A stretch of DNA of 21,825 nt, taken from a virus. The DNA lies in the IMG/VR virus record IMGVR_UViG_3300028388_001086, positions 1-21,825 of that record; one strand, written 5' to 3'. Positions 2,201-21,493 of the stretch are shown here, piece after piece. The translations under genes and the position numbers were made by a program. Each line of letters opens with the position of its first letter. Within the stretch, counting starts at the first letter, position 1. Below the pieces are notes generated by a model that saw only the letters and a program-made list of their open reading frames with translations, had not been told where the DNA came from and searched no databases.

Positions 2201-3176
2201 ATGACGATCACTCGCACTGTCTACAACACCGAAGAACTTCTCGGTGTCTATCGCGATCTTGAGCCCAGCCAGGAGTTTTGGCTGTCGTTCTTCCCCGGCA
2301 TGTTCACGTCGGAGAGCGAACGGATCGAATGGTCCAAGATCACCGACTACCGCCACCTGGCCCCGCTCGTGCTTCCGACGGCCCAGGGTCGCCCGACCTT
2401 CAAGGCCGAAGAAGATATGTATTCGGTCAAGCCGGGCTACCTCAAGCCGAAGGATGCCGTCCAGGCCGCCGCGATGCTCACCCGTCGCGCTGGTCTCGGC
2501 GAGATCGGCCAGGCCCAGCCCCTTTCGCCGCAGGGCCGCTACAACGCGACCGTCGCGGCGATCCTCCAGAAGCATCGTTCGGACATCGAGCGGCGCTGGG
2601 AGTGGATGGCCGCCCAGGCGATCCTCTACGGCACGATCACCCTCGAAGACGACGGCTACCCCGCCGCCACGGTGGACTTCCGCCGGGATGCTGGGCAGAC
2701 CGTGGTCCTCACGGGCGCGAACGCCTGGGGCCAGGCGGGCGTCTCCATTGTCGATCTGATCGACGGCTGGAACGACACGATGGCGGACGCCAAGTTCGGC
2801 GGCCCGGCCACCGATGCCATCATGGGCACGACCGCCTGGTCCGTGTTCAAGGCGGACGCGGAAGTGCAGAAGCTCCTGGAAGCGGACATCCGCAACACCA
2901 GCGGCACGTCCCTGGACCTCGGCGTCGGCAACGGCGACAAGGTGCAATACAAGGGCAACCTGTCGCGGAACCTCCGTCATGGTCGGCCAGGCGGTTCGGG
3001 GCGTGAAAGCGTTTGGTGCGATCCTGGACACCCGTGCGAGCTTCCAGCCGCTTCCGATCTTCCCGAAGATGTGGGAAGAGAACGATCCGTCGGCGACGAT
3101 GCTGATGACCCAGAGCGCGCCGCTCATGGTCCCGGTGAACCCGAACAACACGTTCCGGGCTCGCGTGGTCGAGTAA
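2201..3176 (+). pseudogene. Major capsid protein gene (lambda gpE-like, HK97 fold), reading frame broken near 2960-2975
   Basis: The capsid shell protein starts at 2201 and reads well for about 255 residues, including FWLSFFPGMFTSESERIEW, LVLPTAQGRPTFKAEE, a pleated E-loop-like region and LLEADIRNTSGTSLDLGVGN. After VQYKGNLS (about 2965) this frame becomes Arg/Gly/Pro-rich noise. The typical gpE C-terminus continues in the +1 frame: GTSVMVGQAVRGVKAFGAIL, then FPKMWEENDPSATMLMTQSA and PLMVPVNPNNTFRARVVE, ending at 3176. Homologues carry roughly 20-25 more residues at the junction (the segment ending in a 'FLPDGTVVL'-like strand). A short deletion whose length is not a multiple of three therefore explains both the frame change and the reduced joined length of about 324 residues (lambda gpE is 341). 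It may be a true lesion of a defective prophage or an assembly error. The neighbours are intact. Confidence 0.85.
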
Positions 3177-9700: not shown

Positions 9701-11730
9701 TGCCGATCAACGCGGAGATGGCAGACCAATTCGATGCCTTGGCTCGTGCCTTGGTCGAGCCCGGAGAGAACCTGGAAGAGCTTCGCGATGTCCTGATAGT
9801 CCTGACCGGCGATGAAGAAGAAGCGGAAGCCGCGCTACGGCGGCTCTCGGGGGCTGTCGAGGACACAGGGGACGCCGCCACCGAAGCCGCCTCTCAGGCC
9901 GAACAGTTCGGAGCCGCTCTCCGCAGACTCCAAGAAGAAGTCCCAGGGTTGGTCGAAGAACTGGACCGCCTGGACCAGATCAACGTGCTCGCCCGCCTCC
10001 GAGACGAAGCCTTGGCCCTCGCCACGAACACGGAAGAGGCGATCGCAGCACTCGAAGCCTATCGTCTCGGGATCGCTAACCTGGACTCCGAAGGCATATT
10101 CGCTGGGGCGTCTGGAAGCGTGGAAGCCTCGGCAGCTTTGCTTCGAAACCGAGAAGGATTCCGAGAGACCCCGTATTGGGACGTGAACGCTCTCAGGATC
10201 GGTTTCGGGTCAGACACCATTACGTTGTCCGACGGCACGGTGCAGCGCGTTGTCGAGGGTATGCGTGTTTCGGTGGCAGACGCAAATCGCGATCTTATTC
10301 GCCGCATCGGCGAGTTCCAGGGCGTTGTTCGCGGGCAGATCGGCGGCGCAAGGTTCGAGTCTTTTTCCGATCAGCAGCAAGCGGTTTTGACCTCCATTGC
10401 GTATAACTATGGCAGTTTGCCTGGGCGCATCATTGAGGCGGTTCGGACGGGTTCTTCGGAAGAGATCGCCACGGCGATCAGGGGCCTCCAGAACGATAAC
10501 GAGGGCGTCAACAGGGAGCGTAGGCTCCAAGAGGCTGACATTTTCCAGCTTGGCGGTGCGGCGGACTTCGGTCCCTACGTCGAGGCAGAACGCGAGCGAA
10601 CCCGGCTGGCCGAGCGTGCGGCAGCGCAAGCCGAGCGTGAAGCCGAGGCAACGGCCCGGCGTATCGCCGACGCACAGTTCGGTATCGAGCAGCAGACCCT
10701 TCTCAATAACGGCAGGGAGCGTGAGGCGGCCATCGCGGAGGCTATCCGAGAAGCACGCCAAGAAAACGCGAATATCACCGAAGCCGAGATCGCCCAGGTA
10801 GCGGAATTGGCTGGCAGGCAGTTCGACCTCCAGGCCCAAGAAGAGGCCGCTACGACCCAACGAGAGCGGGCACGAGAGGTCGAGACGCAGATCAACGAAC
10901 TGGTGCAACAACGAACTGCGCTCCAGTCTCTCCTGGAGCAGCAGATCGCGCGAGGGGTGTCGGCAGACGCCATCGAAGAGACCCGTGCTGGCCTGGCGAG
11001 CGTGAACGAACAGCTTCAATCCGCTATCGAAAACGCCCTCCAACTTTTGCTCACTTTCGATCAGACAGACCCCGCAGTCGCGGCCATCGTGGCCCGTATG
11101 CAGGAACTCCAGGTGGAAGGGCAGACCGCCGCCCAGGGGATCAGGATCAGCTTCCAAGACCTATCCCAGGCGTTCACCGGGGCGTTCACCAACGCGGTCA
11201 ACGGGTTCGCCAACGCCATCGCAAACGGAAAAAGCGCAACTGACGCGCTTGCGAACGCCTTCCGCCAGTTCGCGGCAGACTTCCTTCGTCAGATCGCGCA
11301 GATGATCCTCCAACAGCTTGCCTTGAACGCAGCCCAAGCCATCGGGAGGATGTTCGGCTTCTCTGTTGGGGTGTCGCACTCCGGGGGGATTATCGGAGCG
11401 CTCGGCGCGGGGCTTAAGGTCTCTCCAGCATCGTTTGCAGGAGCTATGAGGTATCATTCTGGCGGGATCGCAGGGCTCCGGCCAAACGAAGTTCCGACGA
11501 TCTTGGAGCGCAACGAAGAGGTCTTGACGACCAGTGACCCCCGGCACGCCTTCAACATGGGCAAAGGGGGCGGATCGGGCGGCGCACGAGGCGGAAGCAT
11601 CAAGATCGTGAACGCCTTGAACTCGGAAGACCTGGTGTCGGAAGGGCTGTCGTCTCGCCGGGGTGAGCAAGCCGTGTTGAACGTCATTCGGTCCAACAGT
11701 TCCGTCGTGAAGGGGGTGCTGGATGGCTGA
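6757..11730 (+). CDS. Tape measure protein with embedded lysozyme-like domain
   Basis: This 1657-residue protein sets tail length and is ejected ahead of the DNA. GGAGG at 6747-6751 fixes its start. Residues 1-500 are an almost unbroken Ala/Arg/Gln/Glu-rich coiled coil. Residues about 530-730 match the conserved tape-measure domain (YRTLEQAQNRLNAVFDN, GTVSMEELRQQLGDRLPGAL, TAIGRFENAIFNAF). Hydrophobic segments at about 772-795 and 837-858 could insert in the inner membrane. Residues about 1118-1265 resemble a T4/GH24-type lysozyme: E1133 in REGF, D1142 nine residues later in YWDVNALRIGFGSDT, then FSDQQQAVLTSIAYNYGSLP. An Arg (R1148) occupies the position of the T4 catalytic Thr. The C-terminus is hydrophobic and glycine-rich. 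At roughly 0.15 nm per residue, as in lambda, the tail would be at most about 250 nm, less for the globular part. Confidence 0.93.
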   Translation: MARRNVELVIRARDEAKTALTAINKALDDFSGNTQRVRDEASKTDTRLDSLGSAFRELRQAVGQLGATGQVERQLRNITGEITRQEAAIQRTEAALQDYSSRFAQTRSETDRLAATQARLSGELERGKAAVERSQAAQRALASATGQAQRAQDQYAARQNKLNEQITRQNQKLQEYETRLASLRGEIANTAKPTAALVRNFERTEKAIGNTRARINDLVETQRLISVESDRAARSVQRANTIYGSQAAALDRNQAALERTEQAYRESAAAAKASATEQARLEAAAKKSAGSLEQQNAALQRARSAYEQTQATVRETADALSRLDAETRRGLLRSLREQITRVSDARQSYRELSAEASRLGNELRKTTNPTNAQVQAFERFRVAAAQARQEFRAQGQALSNLRSVLRETGGDVDTISSRVQRFQNVLQGARSGYAGLQQSSQAAAAAAARLAREQGRAAGNTERLRGGTDRLGASMRQGARSTGLFANAIRQFYGETRTALGFTQRLRGEVLSLIAAYGGFFAAIEGIRGVVNAYRTLEQAQNRLNAVFDNDEIAVGNEIDFLRRTADRLGIQFGVLSQEYTKFAVATQGTNLEGENTRNIFRQVAEAARVQGLSLDNLQGVFVALTQIVSKGTVSMEELRQQLGDRLPGALQILAAGLGKTTEELIDLIENGELSSDSLIAFGDELERRFSGQLPAALEGVNTAIGRFENAIFNAFVTIGQGGAIEGFADLLNDLVDALDTAAVQDFLTNVGAGLQQFFNILGLVVENWDLLIVAITTFIGLKIAPFVVAIIGLMGRWQAIVRLARIRTATLTGALGGLAGGARGAAGALTALRGSLTLLLSSTGIGLLVTLIGTGIGVWATRGSEATEVMIQHRRIIDSVRNAYDQVGDSITEIRDRLSNLTAIQVEGQIREAARQFESALSEFEDAIPRNIFGNIIDNDRIGGFFTEVDALTQRLRDGEIDVAEFRSELEDLSLEMRDNVPINAEMADQFDALARALVEPGENLEELRDVLIVLTGDEEEAEAALRRLSGAVEDTGDAATEAASQAEQFGAALRRLQEEVPGLVEELDRLDQINVLARLRDEALALATNTEEAIAALEAYRLGIANLDSEGIFAGASGSVEASAALLRNREGFRETPYWDVNALRIGFGSDTITLSDGTVQRVVEGMRVSVADANRDLIRRIGEFQGVVRGQIGGARFESFSDQQQAVLTSIAYNYGSLPGRIIEAVRTGSSEEIATAIRGLQNDNEGVNRERRLQEADIFQLGGAADFGPYVEAERERTRLAERAAAQAEREAEATARRIADAQFGIEQQTLLNNGREREAAIAEAIREARQENANITEAEIAQVAELAGRQFDLQAQEEAATTQRERAREVETQINELVQQRTALQSLLEQQIARGVSADAIEETRAGLASVNEQLQSAIENALQLLLTFDQTDPAVAAIVARMQELQVEGQTAAQGIRISFQDLSQAFTGAFTNAVNGFANAIANGKSATDALANAFRQFAADFLRQIAQMILQQLALNAAQAIGRMFGFSVGVSHSGGIIGALGAGLKVSPASFAGAMRYHSGGIAGLRPNEVPTILERNEEVLTTSDPRHAFNMGKGGGSGGARGGSIKIVNALNSEDLVSEGLSSRRGEQAVLNVIRSNSSVVKGVLDG

Positions 11731-13881: not shown

Positions 13882-14136
13882 ATGCCTTTCACACTAGCGA
13901 CCTTCTTGATAAGTCTGGCGGTGAGCGTGACGCTTACGGTGTTGGCCGCCCTCATCATGCCGAAACCCAAGCCCCCTAAGACGGAAGCTCAGGATTTCGA
14001 AGACCCAAAAGCCGACGCCGGGCGACCGATTCCGGTAGTTTTCGGGACCAAGACAGTGAAGGGCCTCGGCTTACTGTGGTATGGCGAGAAGACAACCAGG
14101 AAATACGAAATCAGCACTGGCGGCGGCAAGAAGTAA
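13882..14136 (+). CDS. Small membrane-anchored tail-locus protein
   Basis: This protein of 84 residues has AGGGA at 13872-13876 five bases before its ATG. Residues about 4-26 (FTLATFLISLAVSVTLTVLA) form one hydrophobic membrane segment. A proline/lysine linker (PKPKPPKTE) and a soluble part with AGRPIPVVFGTKTVKGLGLL and WYGEKTTRKYEI follow. The 'GRPIPVVFGT..vkG.n..WYG' stretch is a recurring pattern in small proteins encoded just before J-like tip proteins, and resembles the beginning of some tip proteins. Its role is unknown; it may chaperone the tip protein or anchor at the tail end. It stands where many DUF2163-type tail modules encode an NlpC/P60 cell-wall peptidase, but has no catalytic Cys/His pattern. 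Confidence 0.7.
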   Translation: MPFTLATFLISLAVSVTLTVLAALIMPKPKPPKTEAQDFEDPKADAGRPIPVVFGTKTVKGLGLLWYGEKTTRKYEISTGGGKK

Positions 14137-14339: not shown

Positions 14340-16628
14340 ATGGGCGGCGGGGGTAAAGGCGGCGGCACGCAAACAGTCTACGATTACCGGATGAGCCTCC
14401 ATTACGGGGTTTGTGTCGGCCCGGTGGATGAGTTCATCGACATCGAAGTGAACGAGAAATGGCTCGGTTTGCAGTCTTCGGCAGAGAACACTGTTTACGC
14501 GGTAGACGACATGAACCTTTTCGGTGGACCGAAAAAAGGGGGTGGCGTTCGCGGCTCCATTTTCACTCTATTCGGCGCGGCGGATCAAGTTCTCCCGGAG
14601 TTTTTGGCCGCTAAACTCGGAAGATCATCCAACACTGTCACGGCGTATCGGAACATTTTTAGCGTGTGGTTTACTGCCCCCCAAAGCGTGTTTTCTACTG
14701 CCCTTTCAGGGGCCTTTGGTTTACTCGGAAGTCTCATCACTTCCGGGTTTTCTGTCGGAACCGAGGGGTTCACTTGGTCTACGAACATGCCGTCCATCCC
14801 GCCTGTCCGCGTAAAGGTCAAGAGAGCCCCGGTGAGTATTTCCGGGGACGATTCGATGATCGGGCCAAACGCTAATCCGGCGCACATCATCTACGAGACG
14901 TTGACGAACTCGGATTGGGGTGCGGGCTATGACCCAGCGCAGTTCAAGGAAAACACTTTCCTGGAGGCCGCGCAGACCCTACGAGACGAAGACTTCGGGT
15001 TGTCTTTCATCTGGACAGGGCAGTCAGCTTTGGAAGACTTCGTAAACGAAGTTCTCCAGCATATCTCGGCCAATCTCACGTTCGACCTCAAGACGGGGCG
15101 ATGGGAACTGAAACTTCTCCGAGGCGACTACGAAATCGAAACGCTCCCGGAGATCAATCCGAAAAATGCGGAACTCGTGGCCTTTCAACGGAAGTCGTGG
15201 GGCGAGACGATCAACGAAATCGTTTTGACCTGGAGCAACCCGGAGAACGAAGAGGAAGAGACCGTAACGCAGCAAGACGCCTCCGGCATGTCCATTCAGA
15301 GATTGGCGGTGTCGGATAGTTCGAAAAATTATCTCGGGATCAGGAGTCAATCTCTGGCTTGGAGGGTGGCGGAACGCGATCTCCGGCAAGAAGGGACCCC
15401 CCTGGCGACGGTAGAAGTGGAGGTTTCGAGAGACTTCCAACGCGACTACGATGTCAAGCCCGGAACCGTGTTGTGGTTTAATTGGGGCGAACTCGATGAA
15501 GACGGAGACGTGTTCTCTGCCCCCTTCGCCGCGAGAGTGTCCGCCGTCAAGAACCCATCGCGCGGAGACGCTGGACTTGTGTTGACTCTGGTGGAAGACA
15601 TCTTCTCTTACGGTGTTTCCCAGACGGGAGAGCAAGGATCAGAGTTCGTGAGCCCGGATCAGTTACCGATTGACCCCCCGAACGTCTACATCCAGGACGC
15701 GCCATATTTCGCAATCGTTCAGCGAGCGGGAGACTCTTTCGCACAAGAACTGACCTACCCAGAGAACTACACCGTCGTTCTCGTAGATACCGGGTTGACT
15801 GACATCCGCGACATCCATCTCAATCGGATCATAACCTTACCAGAACAAGACCCTGCCTACGCCGAATTGGCTTTGTTGGATGACCTGGCGGTGTTCGAAT
15901 TGGAGGATGTGCTCGACCAGGAGATCACGTCAGTCATCAACTTTCCGGGGGGATACTACCCCGAGGGTCTGACCGTTGGCGGCTTGATTTTCATGGGGAG
16001 CGGAGCTTCCGAAGAAATCGCCGTAGTCACATCGTTGTCGGCTACCTCTGTAGGCGTCCGACGTGGCGTTCTGGACACAACGCCGAAAGCACACCCAATA
16101 GGGACCAAGGTGTGGGGACTGAATCGGACATCGAGTATCAGCGATGACCGCGAAGCCGCCGTTGGGGATGTTCTGTCCTACAAACTCTTGCCTTCGACTT
16201 CCCTGGGGAAGTTTCCTCTTGCGGACGCCACCGAGCACACGCACACCGTCGGAGAGCGGGCCTACTTGCCATACCGACCAGCCAATGTCCAAGTGAACGG
16301 AACGCAGGTCTTCGAGGCAAGCATCTCGGCGGCGGACACGTCGATTGCGTTGGCCTGGTCAAACCGAAACCGTTTCACCGAGACAACGAATGTGTTGACT
16401 TGGGACGCGGCAAACGCCACGCCAGAGGTCAACCAAGAGACAGAAGCCGAGCTTGTCCACAACGGTTCGGTTATCGCCACCATGCCCGCAACGACGGGGA
16501 CCACCGGAACTCTTACTATTCCTGGTGCGACGATCACGGCGGGAGACACTCTGACCGTTCGGGTCTGGGCGTCTCGCGACGGGTTTGAGTCTTGGCAAAC
16601 TGTCGAAATACCTGTATCCGTAACGTAA
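14340..16628 (+). CDS. Central tail-tip protein (J-like / TipJ-like host specificity protein)
   Basis: This 762-residue protein begins MGGGGKGGGTQTVYDYRMSL, then HYGVCVGPVDEFIDIEVNEK, the usual opening of J-like tip proteins in DUF2163-type tail modules (Gly-rich start, then 'Y....h..lc.GPvD.i..i.v..k'). Residues about 60-75 (NLFGGPKKGGGVRGSI) match the following conserved Gly-rich loop. The middle (NPAHIIYETLTNSDWGAGYD, LQHISANLTFDLKTGRWELK) looks like the hub domains that form a trimer sealing the tail. The last 110 residues (from about 650) are beta-rich and Thr-rich, ending in an Ig/FN3-like domain (TVRVWASRDGFESWQTVEIP) that could carry fibres. No NlpC/P60 or lysozyme domain is visible. 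It is shorter than lambda gpJ (1132 residues). The start abuts the preceding stop. Confidence 0.82.
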   Translation: MGGGGKGGGTQTVYDYRMSLHYGVCVGPVDEFIDIEVNEKWLGLQSSAENTVYAVDDMNLFGGPKKGGGVRGSIFTLFGAADQVLPEFLAAKLGRSSNTVTAYRNIFSVWFTAPQSVFSTALSGAFGLLGSLITSGFSVGTEGFTWSTNMPSIPPVRVKVKRAPVSISGDDSMIGPNANPAHIIYETLTNSDWGAGYDPAQFKENTFLEAAQTLRDEDFGLSFIWTGQSALEDFVNEVLQHISANLTFDLKTGRWELKLLRGDYEIETLPEINPKNAELVAFQRKSWGETINEIVLTWSNPENEEEETVTQQDASGMSIQRLAVSDSSKNYLGIRSQSLAWRVAERDLRQEGTPLATVEVEVSRDFQRDYDVKPGTVLWFNWGELDEDGDVFSAPFAARVSAVKNPSRGDAGLVLTLVEDIFSYGVSQTGEQGSEFVSPDQLPIDPPNVYIQDAPYFAIVQRAGDSFAQELTYPENYTVVLVDTGLTDIRDIHLNRIITLPEQDPAYAELALLDDLAVFELEDVLDQEITSVINFPGGYYPEGLTVGGLIFMGSGASEEIAVVTSLSATSVGVRRGVLDTTPKAHPIGTKVWGLNRTSSISDDREAAVGDVLSYKLLPSTSLGKFPLADATEHTHTVGERAYLPYRPANVQVNGTQVFEASISAADTSIALAWSNRNRFTETTNVLTWDAANATPEVNQETEAELVHNGSVIATMPATTGTTGTLTIPGATITAGDTLTVRVWASRDGFESWQTVEIPVSVT

Positions 16629-16644: not shown

Positions 16645-18396
16645 ATGCCTGGAACGACGCGCGAACTGAGAAACCGAAACGATTTCCCCTTGTGGTCGGA
16701 TTTGACCGGTAGCGAAATCATTCCAGCGGTGAAAGCTGACGGATCACCAGTGGCGATCCCAACAAGTGCTTTTTCCCAGAACACCGGGGATGTGCGTTAT
16801 ATCGAGCCTTCATTGACGGACTTGCAGGCTGTTTCTGGGGCCTCAGAGGGCGATTTCGGTCTGGTCCGAAATGATCTACCGGAATCCGGCTATTACGAAT
16901 ACGTCTCCGGCTCTTGGGTGAAGAAAGCGGAAGCTCCCGCGTTGATTGGGGGGTATTCCGAGGAACGCATTATCTACGTCTCCCAGGACGGGTCCGACGC
17001 GGCAAACGGGGAAGGTCGTGACCGCGCCGTCAGGTCCATTGAAGCAGCCCGCGATCTCGCGGTAGCGAGTGGAGACCCCACGGCGATCTACGTTTATCCA
17101 GGCATTTATGAGACCAGTGGGCACATCGACATGCCCGACAACATGACGGGTTTGGTGGCCGCCACCAACAGCCGATCTACCAAGATTGTGCCGTCAGCCG
17201 GAAACGAGGTCAAAAACGTCTTGCGCCTCGGGGACAACGGCTACGTCGAAGGTTTCAGCTTTGAGGGCTGGCAGGTTGACGATTTAGACAACCCTTCGGA
17301 GGGGTTCGCCGTGAGTTTTCGACCAGGGGCCATCATTCGCCGAACCGTTTTCGCGTTCAACATCACCGTCTTTCGGGGGAGCCCCGCAGTCTTGGTTCCA
17401 CCACCTTTGGATCGAGACAACGGCAACCCGCTAGTAGGGAATGGCCCTGGTGTTGCCTTGGCGGACAAGGCAGTCGTGTCGCAATACTCTGTCTTTCCCC
17501 AAATCATGCTCTGGGGCGCAACTCCTGTTTGCCCCAACGGCATCGGGTATTGTGCCAAGAACGGGGCTTTCATCAACGGGATAAACGCAGTCGCCTTGTG
17601 GATGCACAAGCATTACATGGCTCTTTCGGGCGGTGAAATCATTCTGACAAACTGCGCTTCTCAGTTCGGGGATTACTCTCTCTGGGCTGACGGCTCCACG
17701 CAAAAGATCGTTCCGGCCTCAACGGATGTGACGATACTGTCGGACAACACCGCAGCGGATGTGATCGCCGCCAACAAGCAAGCCATCATTGACGACATGT
17801 GGGTCGATCTCATTTCGGAATACACTGCGCCCCCGGAGCAAGCGACACGAGACGACGCCGCCAATTTCCTGTTGTCTCTGGAGTATGATCTCCGTGCTGG
17901 GCAGCAAGAGAGTATGCGACGGTTCGCGGCTGGCCTGTTTGACTACAAAGGCGACTTCGTTGCTTCCGAATTGTTGAAAGCCGAGTTTATTCACACTTTT
18001 GAATTTATGAAAACCAGGCTGTATTCCCTGATTTCGACGACATCAACTCAGGTTTCTATTAACGGCTTGGTCCAACTGGTCATAGACACGGTGAACAACC
18101 CTGTGACCCAAGTGAAGCCGTCCAAGATAACTAGCGTCGGACACCAATGGAACAATACGATGGCTGGCGTGAATGGGCGCGCTTTAGACCGCCCTTCACT
18201 GGATGTTCCTGACAGCATAATCCAAAGAAATCTGGGCGAAGTCGTATTCAGTGGCATTGACGATCAAGGCAAGCAATATTTCTCCGGCGGTGCTATTGTG
18301 AACCCACTTACAGGTAAACTCGAAGGACCGCCTATCGGACGGACCATCGACCCACGCGCCAGGCGGGCGGCAATCATCTCTGGAGGTCAACAATGA
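16645..18396 (+). CDS. Putative tail fibre with beta-helix-like domain
   Basis: This 583-residue protein has GGAAGGA at 16631-16637 eight bases before its ATG. The N-terminus (LRNRNDFPLWSDLTGSEIIP, then DLQAVSGASEGDFGLVRNDL and YYEYVSGSWVKK) resembles virion-attachment parts of tail fibres, including a small 'YY.y..g.W' unit. From about residue 109, IIYVSQDGSDAANGEGRDRA, then AIYVYPGIYETSGHIDMPDN, has the opening pattern of right-handed beta-helix (pectin-lyase-fold) proteins; beta-rich sequence continues to about 360. A helical section and a C-terminal segment follow (ITSVGHQWNNTMAGVNGRAL, DDQGKQYFSGGAIVNPLTGK). That segment recalls structural proteins of marine phages. No catalytic residues for glycan cleavage are evident. 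It overlaps the next gene by ATGA. Fibre or spike function is inferred from fold and location. Confidence 0.66.
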   Translation: MPGTTRELRNRNDFPLWSDLTGSEIIPAVKADGSPVAIPTSAFSQNTGDVRYIEPSLTDLQAVSGASEGDFGLVRNDLPESGYYEYVSGSWVKKAEAPALIGGYSEERIIYVSQDGSDAANGEGRDRAVRSIEAARDLAVASGDPTAIYVYPGIYETSGHIDMPDNMTGLVAATNSRSTKIVPSAGNEVKNVLRLGDNGYVEGFSFEGWQVDDLDNPSEGFAVSFRPGAIIRRTVFAFNITVFRGSPAVLVPPPLDRDNGNPLVGNGPGVALADKAVVSQYSVFPQIMLWGATPVCPNGIGYCAKNGAFINGINAVALWMHKHYMALSGGEIILTNCASQFGDYSLWADGSTQKIVPASTDVTILSDNTAADVIAANKQAIIDDMWVDLISEYTAPPEQATRDDAANFLLSLEYDLRAGQQESMRRFAAGLFDYKGDFVASELLKAEFIHTFEFMKTRLYSLISTTSTQVSINGLVQLVIDTVNNPVTQVKPSKITSVGHQWNNTMAGVNGRALDRPSLDVPDSIIQRNLGEVVFSGIDDQGKQYFSGGAIVNPLTGKLEGPPIGRTIDPRARRAAIISGGQQ

Positions 18397-18857
18397 CACG
18401 AATCAATACCGACCAAGCCGCGACGGCGCGGCCCGAACTTGTCGCTTTGGCCGACATCCCGACGGGGTGGGTGACGGTGGTGGAGGCCAACGACTACAGC
18501 ATCCCGGATACCACTGGAAAATGGCCGGAGCGTGACCCGTTGGACTCTACTCGCCGAATCCAGCACGGTCAGGCGCTAGTAGAAGCCCCTCTTATGTTCT
18601 ACAACAAGGACCCGAACACCGACCACCTGGTGGAAGTTCGTATTTTGACCGAGGGCGGGGATTCGATTCAACAACTCAGTGTTCGTATCCCGCCTTTGGA
18701 GACTTACGCGCATCCGGCTCCAGGTCAAATACTGACGAAAAAGCAAATTGGAACTACTTCCGGGGACGCCCTTCAAGTCAAGGCGGACGCCTCGGGGGCC
18801 ATCGACATGACTACCGCAGCGTCTTTTGGCTCGGCTGAACAAGACTTGCCCGCATAA
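18393..18857 (+). CDS. Virion-region protein of unknown function
   Basis: A 154-residue protein translated from an ATGA overlap, with GGAGG at 18382-18386 six bases upstream. I do not recognise the family. It has no signal peptide or membrane segment. The middle looks like one beta-sandwich-sized domain: TGWVTVVEANDYSIPD, ALVEAPLMFYNKDPNTDHLV, EVRILTEGGDSIQQLSVRIP. The C-terminal 45 residues (TKKQIGTTSGDALQVKADAS, then AIDMTTAASFGSAEQDLPA) resemble the end of small fibre-associated or fibre-adaptor proteins. Tight coupling to the fibre gene upstream and the BspA-type adhesin downstream suggests a joint or chaperone for the host-contact apparatus. This is inference from neighbours only. Confidence 0.6.
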   Translation: MTRINTDQAATARPELVALADIPTGWVTVVEANDYSIPDTTGKWPERDPLDSTRRIQHGQALVEAPLMFYNKDPNTDHLVEVRILTEGGDSIQQLSVRIPPLETYAHPAPGQILTKKQIGTTSGDALQVKADASGAIDMTTAASFGSAEQDLPA

Positions 18858-18871
18858 AGGATGATGGTGCT

Positions 18872-21493
18872 ATGACTCGTAGGTATCTAGGACTAGATCG
18901 ACACCTGACCTCGGACCTTCTTCTAGGTAAGGGCAGACCCATCCAAGTTCCGGTCGAAGACGTGCTGGACGCGCAGTGGCACGAGGGCGCTCTGGTTTAC
19001 GGGAACGATGGCGTTTTGTATTTCTCGGATGGCGTGGAATGGGCACCGCCCATCGAGCCGCCGATCATTCGTCGCCCTTTTGGGCAAACTCCGAGGACAG
19101 ACGAAGAAAGGCTAAAGCTGACTCTATCGGATTTCTTTTCGAACGAAGTGGCAGTAACCCAAGAAGGGATTCTGTTTGAAGTTGCCAGCGATAACGATTT
19201 CAACAACATATTGTTTTCCCGGATCGTTGATACCGTAGATGGGAACCACTACGATATTCTTCCCTCCGATGGGCTTGTCGGAGATCAAAGAATTTTTTGG
19301 CGAGGAAAGTATCTGGGGTCTGGCGGGATCGAGAGCAAATTTTCTCCGATCATATCGCAAGTGTATCCTCCAGAAGTTTCCACTCCTGTTCCTGTCACGG
19401 AGCCGGGGGTGCTGACCGCTACGCTGGAAGTGACTCCCTACGAGAGCGGTTTTGGTTTCCAATACAACCGAACCACTTGGGAGATATATGATGTAAACGA
19501 CGCCAGCGGGTCTCCTGTTTATACGACTACGACAACTGACGGAGAGACTTTGCCGACTCCCGATGTGGCGTTGGCTGGAACTTTCTATTTTCGCGCCAGA
19601 TACACCGGGCTTGAAATCGCTGTAAATCGTTTTGTGGACGGAAATTGGTCCGAGCTTCGCCGATACGTCCAGCCGCCACTCGCAACACTTCTAATCTACG
19701 ATACTACCTTGAGCGCAGGAACATCTATCTCGATTTACCTCAATTCCAGCGACGTGGAAATAGATTGGGGGGACGGAACCGTTGAAAGTTTCACTGGAAC
19801 TACAAACGCTTCCCACACTTATGCATCCGAAGGGACGTATAATGTGACCATTTCCGGGACGGCAGTTGGTTTTCGTCCCGGAAACACCGGTAGCGCCGGT
19901 CAAGAAAAGCTATTGAGTTGTCAGGCTATCGGATTCAATCACGGCCTTACGACGTTTGCCGACATGTTTTTAGGTTGTTCAAACCTTACTTTCGCTCCGG
20001 CTCAAATCCCCTCCGGGATAGCATCTTTCAATAGGTGTTTTCAATCGTGCGCATCATTCAACGCGCCTATAGGCTTGTGGTCTATGGGTTCGGCAACGGA
20101 CCTTGGACACATGTTCCGAGGTTGCAGCATTTTTGACCAAGATTTGAGTTCTTGGGACGTATCCATAGTGACTACTTTTCAGGGCATGTTCGACAACGCC
20201 ATTGCGTTCAATAACAACGGCTCCCCAGGCATAAACAATTGGAACACAGGGAGTGCCATTTCGTTTTTTGACATGTTCTACAATGCCGATAGCTTCAATC
20301 AGCCGATTGGTGCTTGGGATACTGGCAATGTAACTACAATGCAAAGAATGTTCTTTGGTGCTGACGTTTTCGACCAAGACATCGGAAACTGGAATGTTGG
20401 CGCGGTAAACAGCATGACAAACATGTTCTACGGCGCAGCTTCTTTTAACAACGGGGGGTCGCCCAGCATAAACTCGTGGAATACCTCCAATGTCACGAGT
20501 TTCTCAGGGACGTTCCAATTGGCTGACAGTTTTAATCAGCCAATTGGGTCGTGGAACGTTAGTGCCGCGACCAACATGGCGAACATGTTTCGAGATGGGC
20601 GCGACTTCAACCAAGACATTGGTTCGTGGGATGTTTCGACTGCAGCCGCAACTGGAACAGGCTTGACGACTATCTTTTACGGACTAACAAATTTCAATAA
20701 CGGCGGCTCTCCCAGCATCAATAACTGGAATGTATCAGGTCAAACGGATTTCAATTCCATGTTCTTCCTAGCAAGCAATTTTAACCAACCTCTGGAGGGT
20801 TGGGACGTTTCTTCTGGAACAATTTTTGCAAGGATGTTCCGAGGTGCGGTATCGTTTAACCAAGACATCGGGGCGTGGGATGTCTCTTCGGCTCTGGACA
20901 TGAACAATATGTTTCGAGATGCCGATCTATTCAATAACGGGGGCTCACCGTCAATAGACAATTGGAACGTCGCCTTGGTCACGCGAATGGACAACATGTT
21001 CTATGGAACTTCTTTCGATCAACCAATTGGATCGTGGAACGTGTCAAATGTGGAAAACATGTCCGGGATGTTCGCATTGCAACTTTCTCCTGAGTTCAAC
21101 CAGGACATATCTTCTTGGGACGTGGGGAACGTCACAAGTTTTCGCAGCATGTTCTCTTTCAATGGGAGCTTTAACCAACCAATCGGATCGTGGAATACGA
21201 GCAGCGCGACCGACATGGTGGCGATGTTCAGGAGCACAGCCGCCTTTGACCAAGACTTGTCTGGGTGGAATGTGTCTCTAGTGGAAGAGTTTGACCTGTT
21301 CCTCAGTTCCAATTCTCTCTCAACCTCTAACTACGATGCGCTTTTGGTCGCTTGGGAGGCGCAGCTTGTTCAATCTAATCTTGTAGCGCATTTCGGATCG
21401 TCAACTTACACAACGGGTAGTGCGGCAGCTACCGCTCGTGCTGCATTGATTGCAGACCACGGGTGGACAATAACGGATGGAGGGGCGGTATGA
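18872..21493 (+). CDS. BspA/DUF285 leucine-rich-repeat tail adhesin, candidate receptor-binding protein
   Basis: This 873-residue protein has AGGA at 18858-18861 as a weak ribosome-binding site. Residues 1-85 form an N-terminal part that probably attaches to the virion (WHEGALVYGNDGVLYFSDGV). Two Ig/FN3-like domains follow (about 85-165 and 175-265), then a PKD-like domain at 270-335 with VEIDWGDGTVESF and HTYASEGTYNVTISG. Residues 359-808 are about 17 repeats of the BspA/DUF285 (26-residue surface repeat) type, each reading roughly 'm..MF..a..FNq.ig.WnvsnvTn'. The last 65 residues (NYDALLVAWEAQLVQSNLVA to LIADHGWTITDGGAV) are the cap usual for such solenoids. No signal peptide or membrane anchor is seen, unlike cell-surface BspA proteins, which fits a virion part. 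Base composition is lower in GC than the head genes. Receptor binding is inference from position and architecture. Confidence 0.82.
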   Translation: MTRRYLGLDRHLTSDLLLGKGRPIQVPVEDVLDAQWHEGALVYGNDGVLYFSDGVEWAPPIEPPIIRRPFGQTPRTDEERLKLTLSDFFSNEVAVTQEGILFEVASDNDFNNILFSRIVDTVDGNHYDILPSDGLVGDQRIFWRGKYLGSGGIESKFSPIISQVYPPEVSTPVPVTEPGVLTATLEVTPYESGFGFQYNRTTWEIYDVNDASGSPVYTTTTTDGETLPTPDVALAGTFYFRARYTGLEIAVNRFVDGNWSELRRYVQPPLATLLIYDTTLSAGTSISIYLNSSDVEIDWGDGTVESFTGTTNASHTYASEGTYNVTISGTAVGFRPGNTGSAGQEKLLSCQAIGFNHGLTTFADMFLGCSNLTFAPAQIPSGIASFNRCFQSCASFNAPIGLWSMGSATDLGHMFRGCSIFDQDLSSWDVSIVTTFQGMFDNAIAFNNNGSPGINNWNTGSAISFFDMFYNADSFNQPIGAWDTGNVTTMQRMFFGADVFDQDIGNWNVGAVNSMTNMFYGAASFNNGGSPSINSWNTSNVTSFSGTFQLADSFNQPIGSWNVSAATNMANMFRDGRDFNQDIGSWDVSTAAATGTGLTTIFYGLTNFNNGGSPSINNWNVSGQTDFNSMFFLASNFNQPLEGWDVSSGTIFARMFRGAVSFNQDIGAWDVSSALDMNNMFRDADLFNNGGSPSIDNWNVALVTRMDNMFYGTSFDQPIGSWNVSNVENMSGMFALQLSPEFNQDISSWDVGNVTSFRSMFSFNGSFNQPIGSWNTSSATDMVAMFRSTAAFDQDLSGWNVSLVEEFDLFLSSNSLSTSNYDALLVAWEAQLVQSNLVAHFGSSTYTTGSAAATARAALIADHGWTITDGGAV
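19946..21295 (+). repeat. Tandem BspA-type leucine-rich repeats with three-unit superperiod
   Basis: About 17 coding repeats of 24-29 residues. Three unit classes alternate in order: FNQPIGSW-type, FNQDIGSW-type, and a four-residue-longer FNNGGSPSINNW-type. QP-type units start their motif at residues 396, 475, 554, 637, 715 and 767. The long type starts at 446, 525, 608 and 687. The period is therefore about 79 residues for four rounds, after which the long unit drops out and the last two rounds are shorter. The DNA copies differ mostly at synonymous positions. Confidence 0.85.

Follow-up and report, generated by a model that had tools for sequence, protein, structure and literature searches.

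A putative phage tail-tip adhesin with a DUF285 solenoid whose three-coil superperiod may follow from a neighbour rule between coils

The locus studied here raises the question of why the repeats of a phage protein should follow one another in a fixed three-step order. The window, which is the whole stretch of DNA analysed (21,825 nucleotides), corresponds to the linear 21.8 kb IMG/VR record IMGVR_UViG_3300028388_001086, for which no near-identical entry was found among phage records. A preliminary description, based on the letters alone, had read in one of its genes a solenoid with a strict three-coil superperiod, placed it in a tail protein, and proposed that a bulge on every third coil forms a ligand-contact ridge kept by selection.

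The gene (18872..21493) encodes a protein of 873 aa, a putative tail-tip adhesin. It matches the Pfam family DUF285 (PF03382; E=7.4e-119, 390.8 bits) and the NCBIfam PARCEL repeat TIGR02167 (E=8.5e-27, 92.4 bits), exceeding the curated cut-offs of 25 and 30, respectively; no match to the BspA LRR_5 family of Pfam (PF13306) was found at E up to 5. Upstream on the record are head genes followed by genes for a tape-measure protein, a hub, a J-like protein and fibres, which bears out the placing of the DUF285 solenoid among tail genes. The nearest upstream genes, which like the DUF285 gene and all of its parts described below lie on the + strand, are those of a J-like (GTA gp15-type) tail protein (14340..16628; PF13550 E=2.5e-7, phrog_1101 E=1.5e-164), a tail-fibre-like protein (16645..18396; PHROG tail matches) and a 154-aa protein (18393..18857), an ORF without a family match among the Pfam and PHROG profiles. 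The J-like gene looks split, since two ORFs about 200 bases apart (13882-14136 and 14340-16628) match consecutive parts of PHROG 1101 (4-79 and 74-798). The gene for major capsid protein E (PF03864) is likewise split between two frames (2201-2959 and 2958-3173, profile positions 19-218 and 265-329), and the frameshift either arose in the record or is genuine. The tape-measure protein contains a phage lysozyme domain (PF00959, E=6.7e-7) at 10069-10635.

Concerning the domains of the 873-aa protein, the N-terminal part (aa 1-273, 18872..19690) is characterised by its blastp matches to phage proteins and by its AlphaFold2 model and Foldseek matches; aa 1-30 are modelled with low confidence and are followed by beta domains resembling tandem FN3. 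A PKD-like domain lies directly before the solenoid (aa ~291-330, 19745..19861; PF00801 E=2.1e-4, PF18911 E=5.7e-4), its PF00801 score of 21.6 bits being under the cut-off of 23.5. The solenoid itself spans residues 396-816 (20057..21319), and the C-terminal cap (aa 817-873, YDALLVAW...WTITDGGAV, 21320..21490) is predicted to contain two helices (818-829 and 851-863, pLDDT 91-96). The alignment of most DUF285 relatives runs on through this cap to aa 868-873.

Coils were called by anchoring on the conserved Trp, which gave 16 coils of about 25 residues, and were sorted, from the residue at coil position 4 or from the distance between F and W, into the classes P (QP coils), D (QD coils) and L (coils with a four-residue NNGGSP bulge). 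The resulting order is PDL PDL PDL PDL PD PD. The F-x-x-P coils start at residues 396, 475, 554, 637, 715 and 767, the QD coils at 421, 500, 579, 662, 742 and 792, and the long coils at 446, 525, 608 and 687. The long-coil starts are exactly those given in the preliminary description, and its QP starts hold as well, with the motif at residue 396 being FNAP and not QP. The long coils are FNNNGSPGINNW (20207..20293, with an F-to-W distance of 11, not 7), FNNGGSPSINSW (20444..20530), FNNGGSPSINNW (20693..20779) and FNNGGSPSIDNW (20930..21013). Coil lengths are 25,25,29 / 25,25,29 / 25,29,29 / 25,25,28 / 27,25 / 25,25, and the QP-to-QP spacings of 79, 79, 83, 78 and 52 reproduce those described before. 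The spacing of 83 is not due to the bulge but to a separate insertion of four residues after the Trp (WDVSTAAATG...) in the QD coil 579-607 (20606..20692).

The three-class cycle is real: an order in which each P precedes a D and each L follows a D is found in 15 of 1,681,680 possible arrangements and in 18 of 2,000,000 shuffles. The self-alignment peak near 79 residues, on which the preliminary description had staked its reading, is present (0.243), together with peaks at lag 162 (0.248) and at lag 25, the basic coil (0.235); the maximum in 200 residue shuffles was 0.15. The lag-79 peak taken alone was reached by 149 of 2000 coil-order shuffles (p ~0.07), whereas the class order lies far outside them, so the information is in the order of the loops and not in the similarity of whole units. 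A phase test on the window protein by coil length only was weak (p=0.088), and loop classes were therefore used instead. The cycle is confined to the loop before the Trp.

Is this order particular to the window protein? A DNA pattern describing only the long coil was used to scan IMG/VR and matched at least 120 stretches; among the matches listed, 90 non-redundant runs of coils on other viral contigs were used for neighbour statistics. Loci ranked against a P-D-L query were set aside, because such ranking could bias these statistics, and the rule rests on the loci of the long-coil scan. Among those 90 runs, a P coil directly before an L coil occurs once (31.2 expected, z -7.2) and an L before an L also once (17.2 expected), whereas N before L (70 vs 25), D before L (39 vs 23.1) and L before P (73 vs 31.5) all exceed expectation. 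In bacterial and archaeal genomes the coil runs deviate in the same directions for P, N and L, with D before L at chance (7 vs 8.7). Looking at single positions, coil position 4 before an L coil is N in 60%, D in 29% and P in 1%; after an L coil it is P in 66%, compared with 22% elsewhere. Coil position 6 before L is Gly in 87% vs 41% elsewhere, and most other positions are nearly unchanged next to L. This local coupling at positions 4 and 6 favours loop packing over simple descent, although part of the signal could come from N-L-P triplets that are related by descent.

A Markov chain with the family transitions, run for arrays of 16 coils, yields the order LxxLxxLxxL in 2.0% and LxxLxxL in 11.4%. 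The former order is also found in another phage contig (L094, the same as L045/L223) and the latter at the loci L019 and L117. In five other phage DUF285 proteins (L034, L042, L053, L064 and L104) a two-coil superperiod is seen, with lengths alternating between 25 and 33-39. Contigs that bear the labels Candidatus Lokiarchaeota and Prochlorococcus also carry DUF285 genes with these coils (L204, L190 and L205), where transfer, a provirus or mis-binning could account for them. On balance we lean towards the view that DUF285/PARCEL solenoids follow a nearest-neighbour loop code, in which bulged coils come after an N- or D-type coil and preferably before a P-type coil, and which yields regular superperiods. 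No description of a neighbour rule for DUF285 coils was found in the open-access literature.

Our reading of the locus, to which we give a probability of roughly two in three, is that of a tail-tip adhesin solenoid whose three-coil superperiod follows from this DUF285-wide rule. The 16-coil solenoid, which probably binds a ligand on the host surface, would be carried by an N-terminal region for attachment and by spacers resembling FN3 and PKD domains. The bulged coil would need a small polar loop on the preceding coil (Gln-Asn or Gln-Asp, then Ile-Gly) and would favour Gln-Pro on the following one; QP and bulged coils are hardly ever found directly before a bulged coil. Packing between adjacent loops may be the cause. 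The shortest repeating order that such a rule allows is P-(D/N)-L, with 79 residues, as in the window protein.

Alternatively, the superperiod might stem from tandem duplication of a 79-residue block, kept by descent and involving no structural rule. Compared with the first superunit, the others show 42-48% identity, which, like the self-identity peak at lag 79, agrees with duplication. However, the coil cores, taken without the loop, show no higher similarity at lag 3 (identity 0.376) than at other lags (0.31-0.44, with 0.39-0.44 at lags 2, 4, 6, 7 and 8), and conserved residues share identical codons at the rate expected from codon usage (37.6% vs 38.1%). Synonymous sites are saturated (pS 0.69-0.85 between superunits). 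These data leave no trace of a block duplication, and the earlier view that the copies do not stem from a recent one stands. The accompanying statement that the copies had diverged mostly at synonymous positions is only partly right: pS is high as claimed, but pN is high as well (0.33-0.44). A very old duplication could have left no trace, because the synonymous sites are saturated; as a whole, we consider the duplication explanation unlikely.

Two AlphaFold2 models bear on the geometry of the bulges. The first, built with 40 sequences, has a mean pLDDT of 86 (71-97 in the solenoid blocks). In both models one backbone bridge residue per coil is predicted at W+7 in 15 of the 16 coils, long coils included, the exception being the coil 579-607 with its insertion. 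A turn at F+2..F+4 is predicted in all four bulges and in no other coil in the first model; the second, with 12 sequences, keeps the bridge ladder and has this turn in one of the four bulges, with a moderate bulge pLDDT of about 66-75. In both models the bulges occupy an equivalent coil position, as had been expected, with moderate model confidence for the bulges themselves. The further idea that they line up is less direct: the per-residue secondary structure suggests a row on one edge with one bulge per three coils. A sequence search of the PDB returned a chance match only and no solved structure of a DUF285 repeat. FN3 domains dominated the matches of the whole protein in a PDB fold search, so the solenoid was searched by itself; its best matches are the LRR proteins TLR2, TLR9, TLR3 and GARP, none of them significant (E >= 0.014, TM ~0.14). 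In BFVD the matches are to phage and giant-virus proteins annotated as 'BspA family'.

The N-terminus of the protein is common to at least 10 IMG/VR loci, eight of them distinct among the matches listed (blastp, 32-38% identity, E 4e-37 to 1e-43). These relatives came out of the long-coil DNA pattern scan; the N-terminus as a query returned nothing in an IMG/VR scan and nothing by tblastn in phage records. A search of 385 genomes from the class to which the genome bearing L177 (record Ahrensia) belongs did not find it either; that search had no positive control and shows little. A fibre gene lies directly upstream in 10 of 10 orthologous loci (27-29% identical to that of the window), and a matching tape-measure stretch is present in eight of 10. 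At one of these loci, L041, PHROG matches identify the neighbours as tail genes, and a 137-aa ORF occupies the place of the 154-aa protein. One of the contigs with the cassette, that of L044 (IMGVR_UViG_2795385478), is a prophage. The eight distinct orthologues each have one L coil, as D/N-L-P; the exception is L070, in which a further lengthened coil stands between N-L and P. The neighbour rule is thus largely kept in the orthologues. The strict cycle is particular to the window protein, which argues against a need for it in the function of this adhesin family.

These orthologues weigh on the proposal of the preliminary description that the NNGGSP bulges form a row selected as the ligand-contact ridge of the adhesin. 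In its favour, the four bulges are nearly identical in sequence at saturated synonymous distance, and the models give them a common coil position. Against it, eight orthologous tail proteins have a single L coil each and no cycle, and unrelated DUF285 proteins from phages and bacteria often carry an identical bulge sequence, whose conservation therefore reflects the family and not the ligand of the window protein. The family-wide neighbour rule suffices for the three-coil phase, and a selected ridge seems improbable to us. That three coil types fell into this order by chance, for which it could be said that 7% of coil-order shuffles reach the lag-79 identity, is hardly credible given the rarity of the class order and the recurrence of the pair preferences across the family.

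Concerning function, tail-tip receptor binding is the most likely role as judged from gene position, from the combination of a conserved N-terminus and a variable solenoid, and from the tail-fibre neighbours in unrelated phages. The N-terminus is conserved (32-38%) in the eight relatives while the coil patterns of their solenoids vary, which matches the layout of receptor-binding proteins. Tail-fibre or tail-gene neighbours are also seen in L045 and Nohivirus (fibre upstream in both) and in cyanophage ACG-2014f. The DUF285 protein may instead have an unlinked role as a chaperone, enzyme or decoration protein.

DUF285/PARCEL repeats were found in 111 phage records, and the window protein belongs to a known kind. 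Like PARCEL proteins, often annotated as 'BspA family', it has 25-residue coils with the core F-N-Q-x-I-G-x-W-[ND]-[VT]-S and an excess of inverted repeats at the DNA level. Multi-coil DNA palindromes spanning coil blocks are described for PARCEL (PMC2996958). In the solenoid DNA (20057-21319) inverted 8-12-mers are in excess over synonymous shuffles and direct ones show little or no excess at 10-12 bases; the excess is moderate for inverted 10-mers (21 vs 5.5 +/- 4.5, reached in 3 of 300 shuffles). This is in line with PARCEL dyad symmetry, scored here against synonymous shuffles and in the PARCEL paper with MEME. The window protein differs from PARCEL in its strict three-class coil order and its siphophage tail cassette; no such order was found in the parts of Roske et al. 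2010 (PMC2996958) that were consulted. ORF 200 of Vibrio phage pir03 is a PARCEL protein of a phage (PMC7765460), and a DUF285 solenoid is likewise found in the tailed phages Aeromonas D3, Pseudomonas OBP and cyanophage ACG-2014f; the DUF285 gene adjoins tail genes in ACG-2014f and Nohivirus, as in the window. The known phage PARCEL proteins are mostly from jumbo phages and cyanophages, and the N-terminal part of the window protein has no match in phage records. Periodic alternation of repeat classes is likewise known from the three-repeat LRR super-motifs (STT) of about 80 residues in TLR7/8/9 and small leucine-rich proteoglycans (PMC1899181, PMC2637281), where the superperiod is also set by repeat class or length; no sequence homology to these was shown, and the DUF285 coil differs in having one bridge residue and no clear beta strand. 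The preliminary description knew of no three-coil phase in a phage adhesin; phage DUF285 proteins and three-repeat super-motifs had each been described before.

Bacteria, phages and giant viruses widely display DUF285/PARCEL repeats on their surfaces, and DUF285 proteins are present in purified virions of a giant virus (PMC7507832); our searches brought up neither a solved structure nor a binding partner for the repeats. The tail cassette and an N-terminus common to at least nine phage proteins offer a genetic handle for asking if these repeats bind to hosts. A neighbour rule that predicts the sites of bulged loops is a testable step from the sequence to the surface of the solenoid, and the loop code, if true, could be read or designed to set loops at fixed intervals on the surface of an adhesin.
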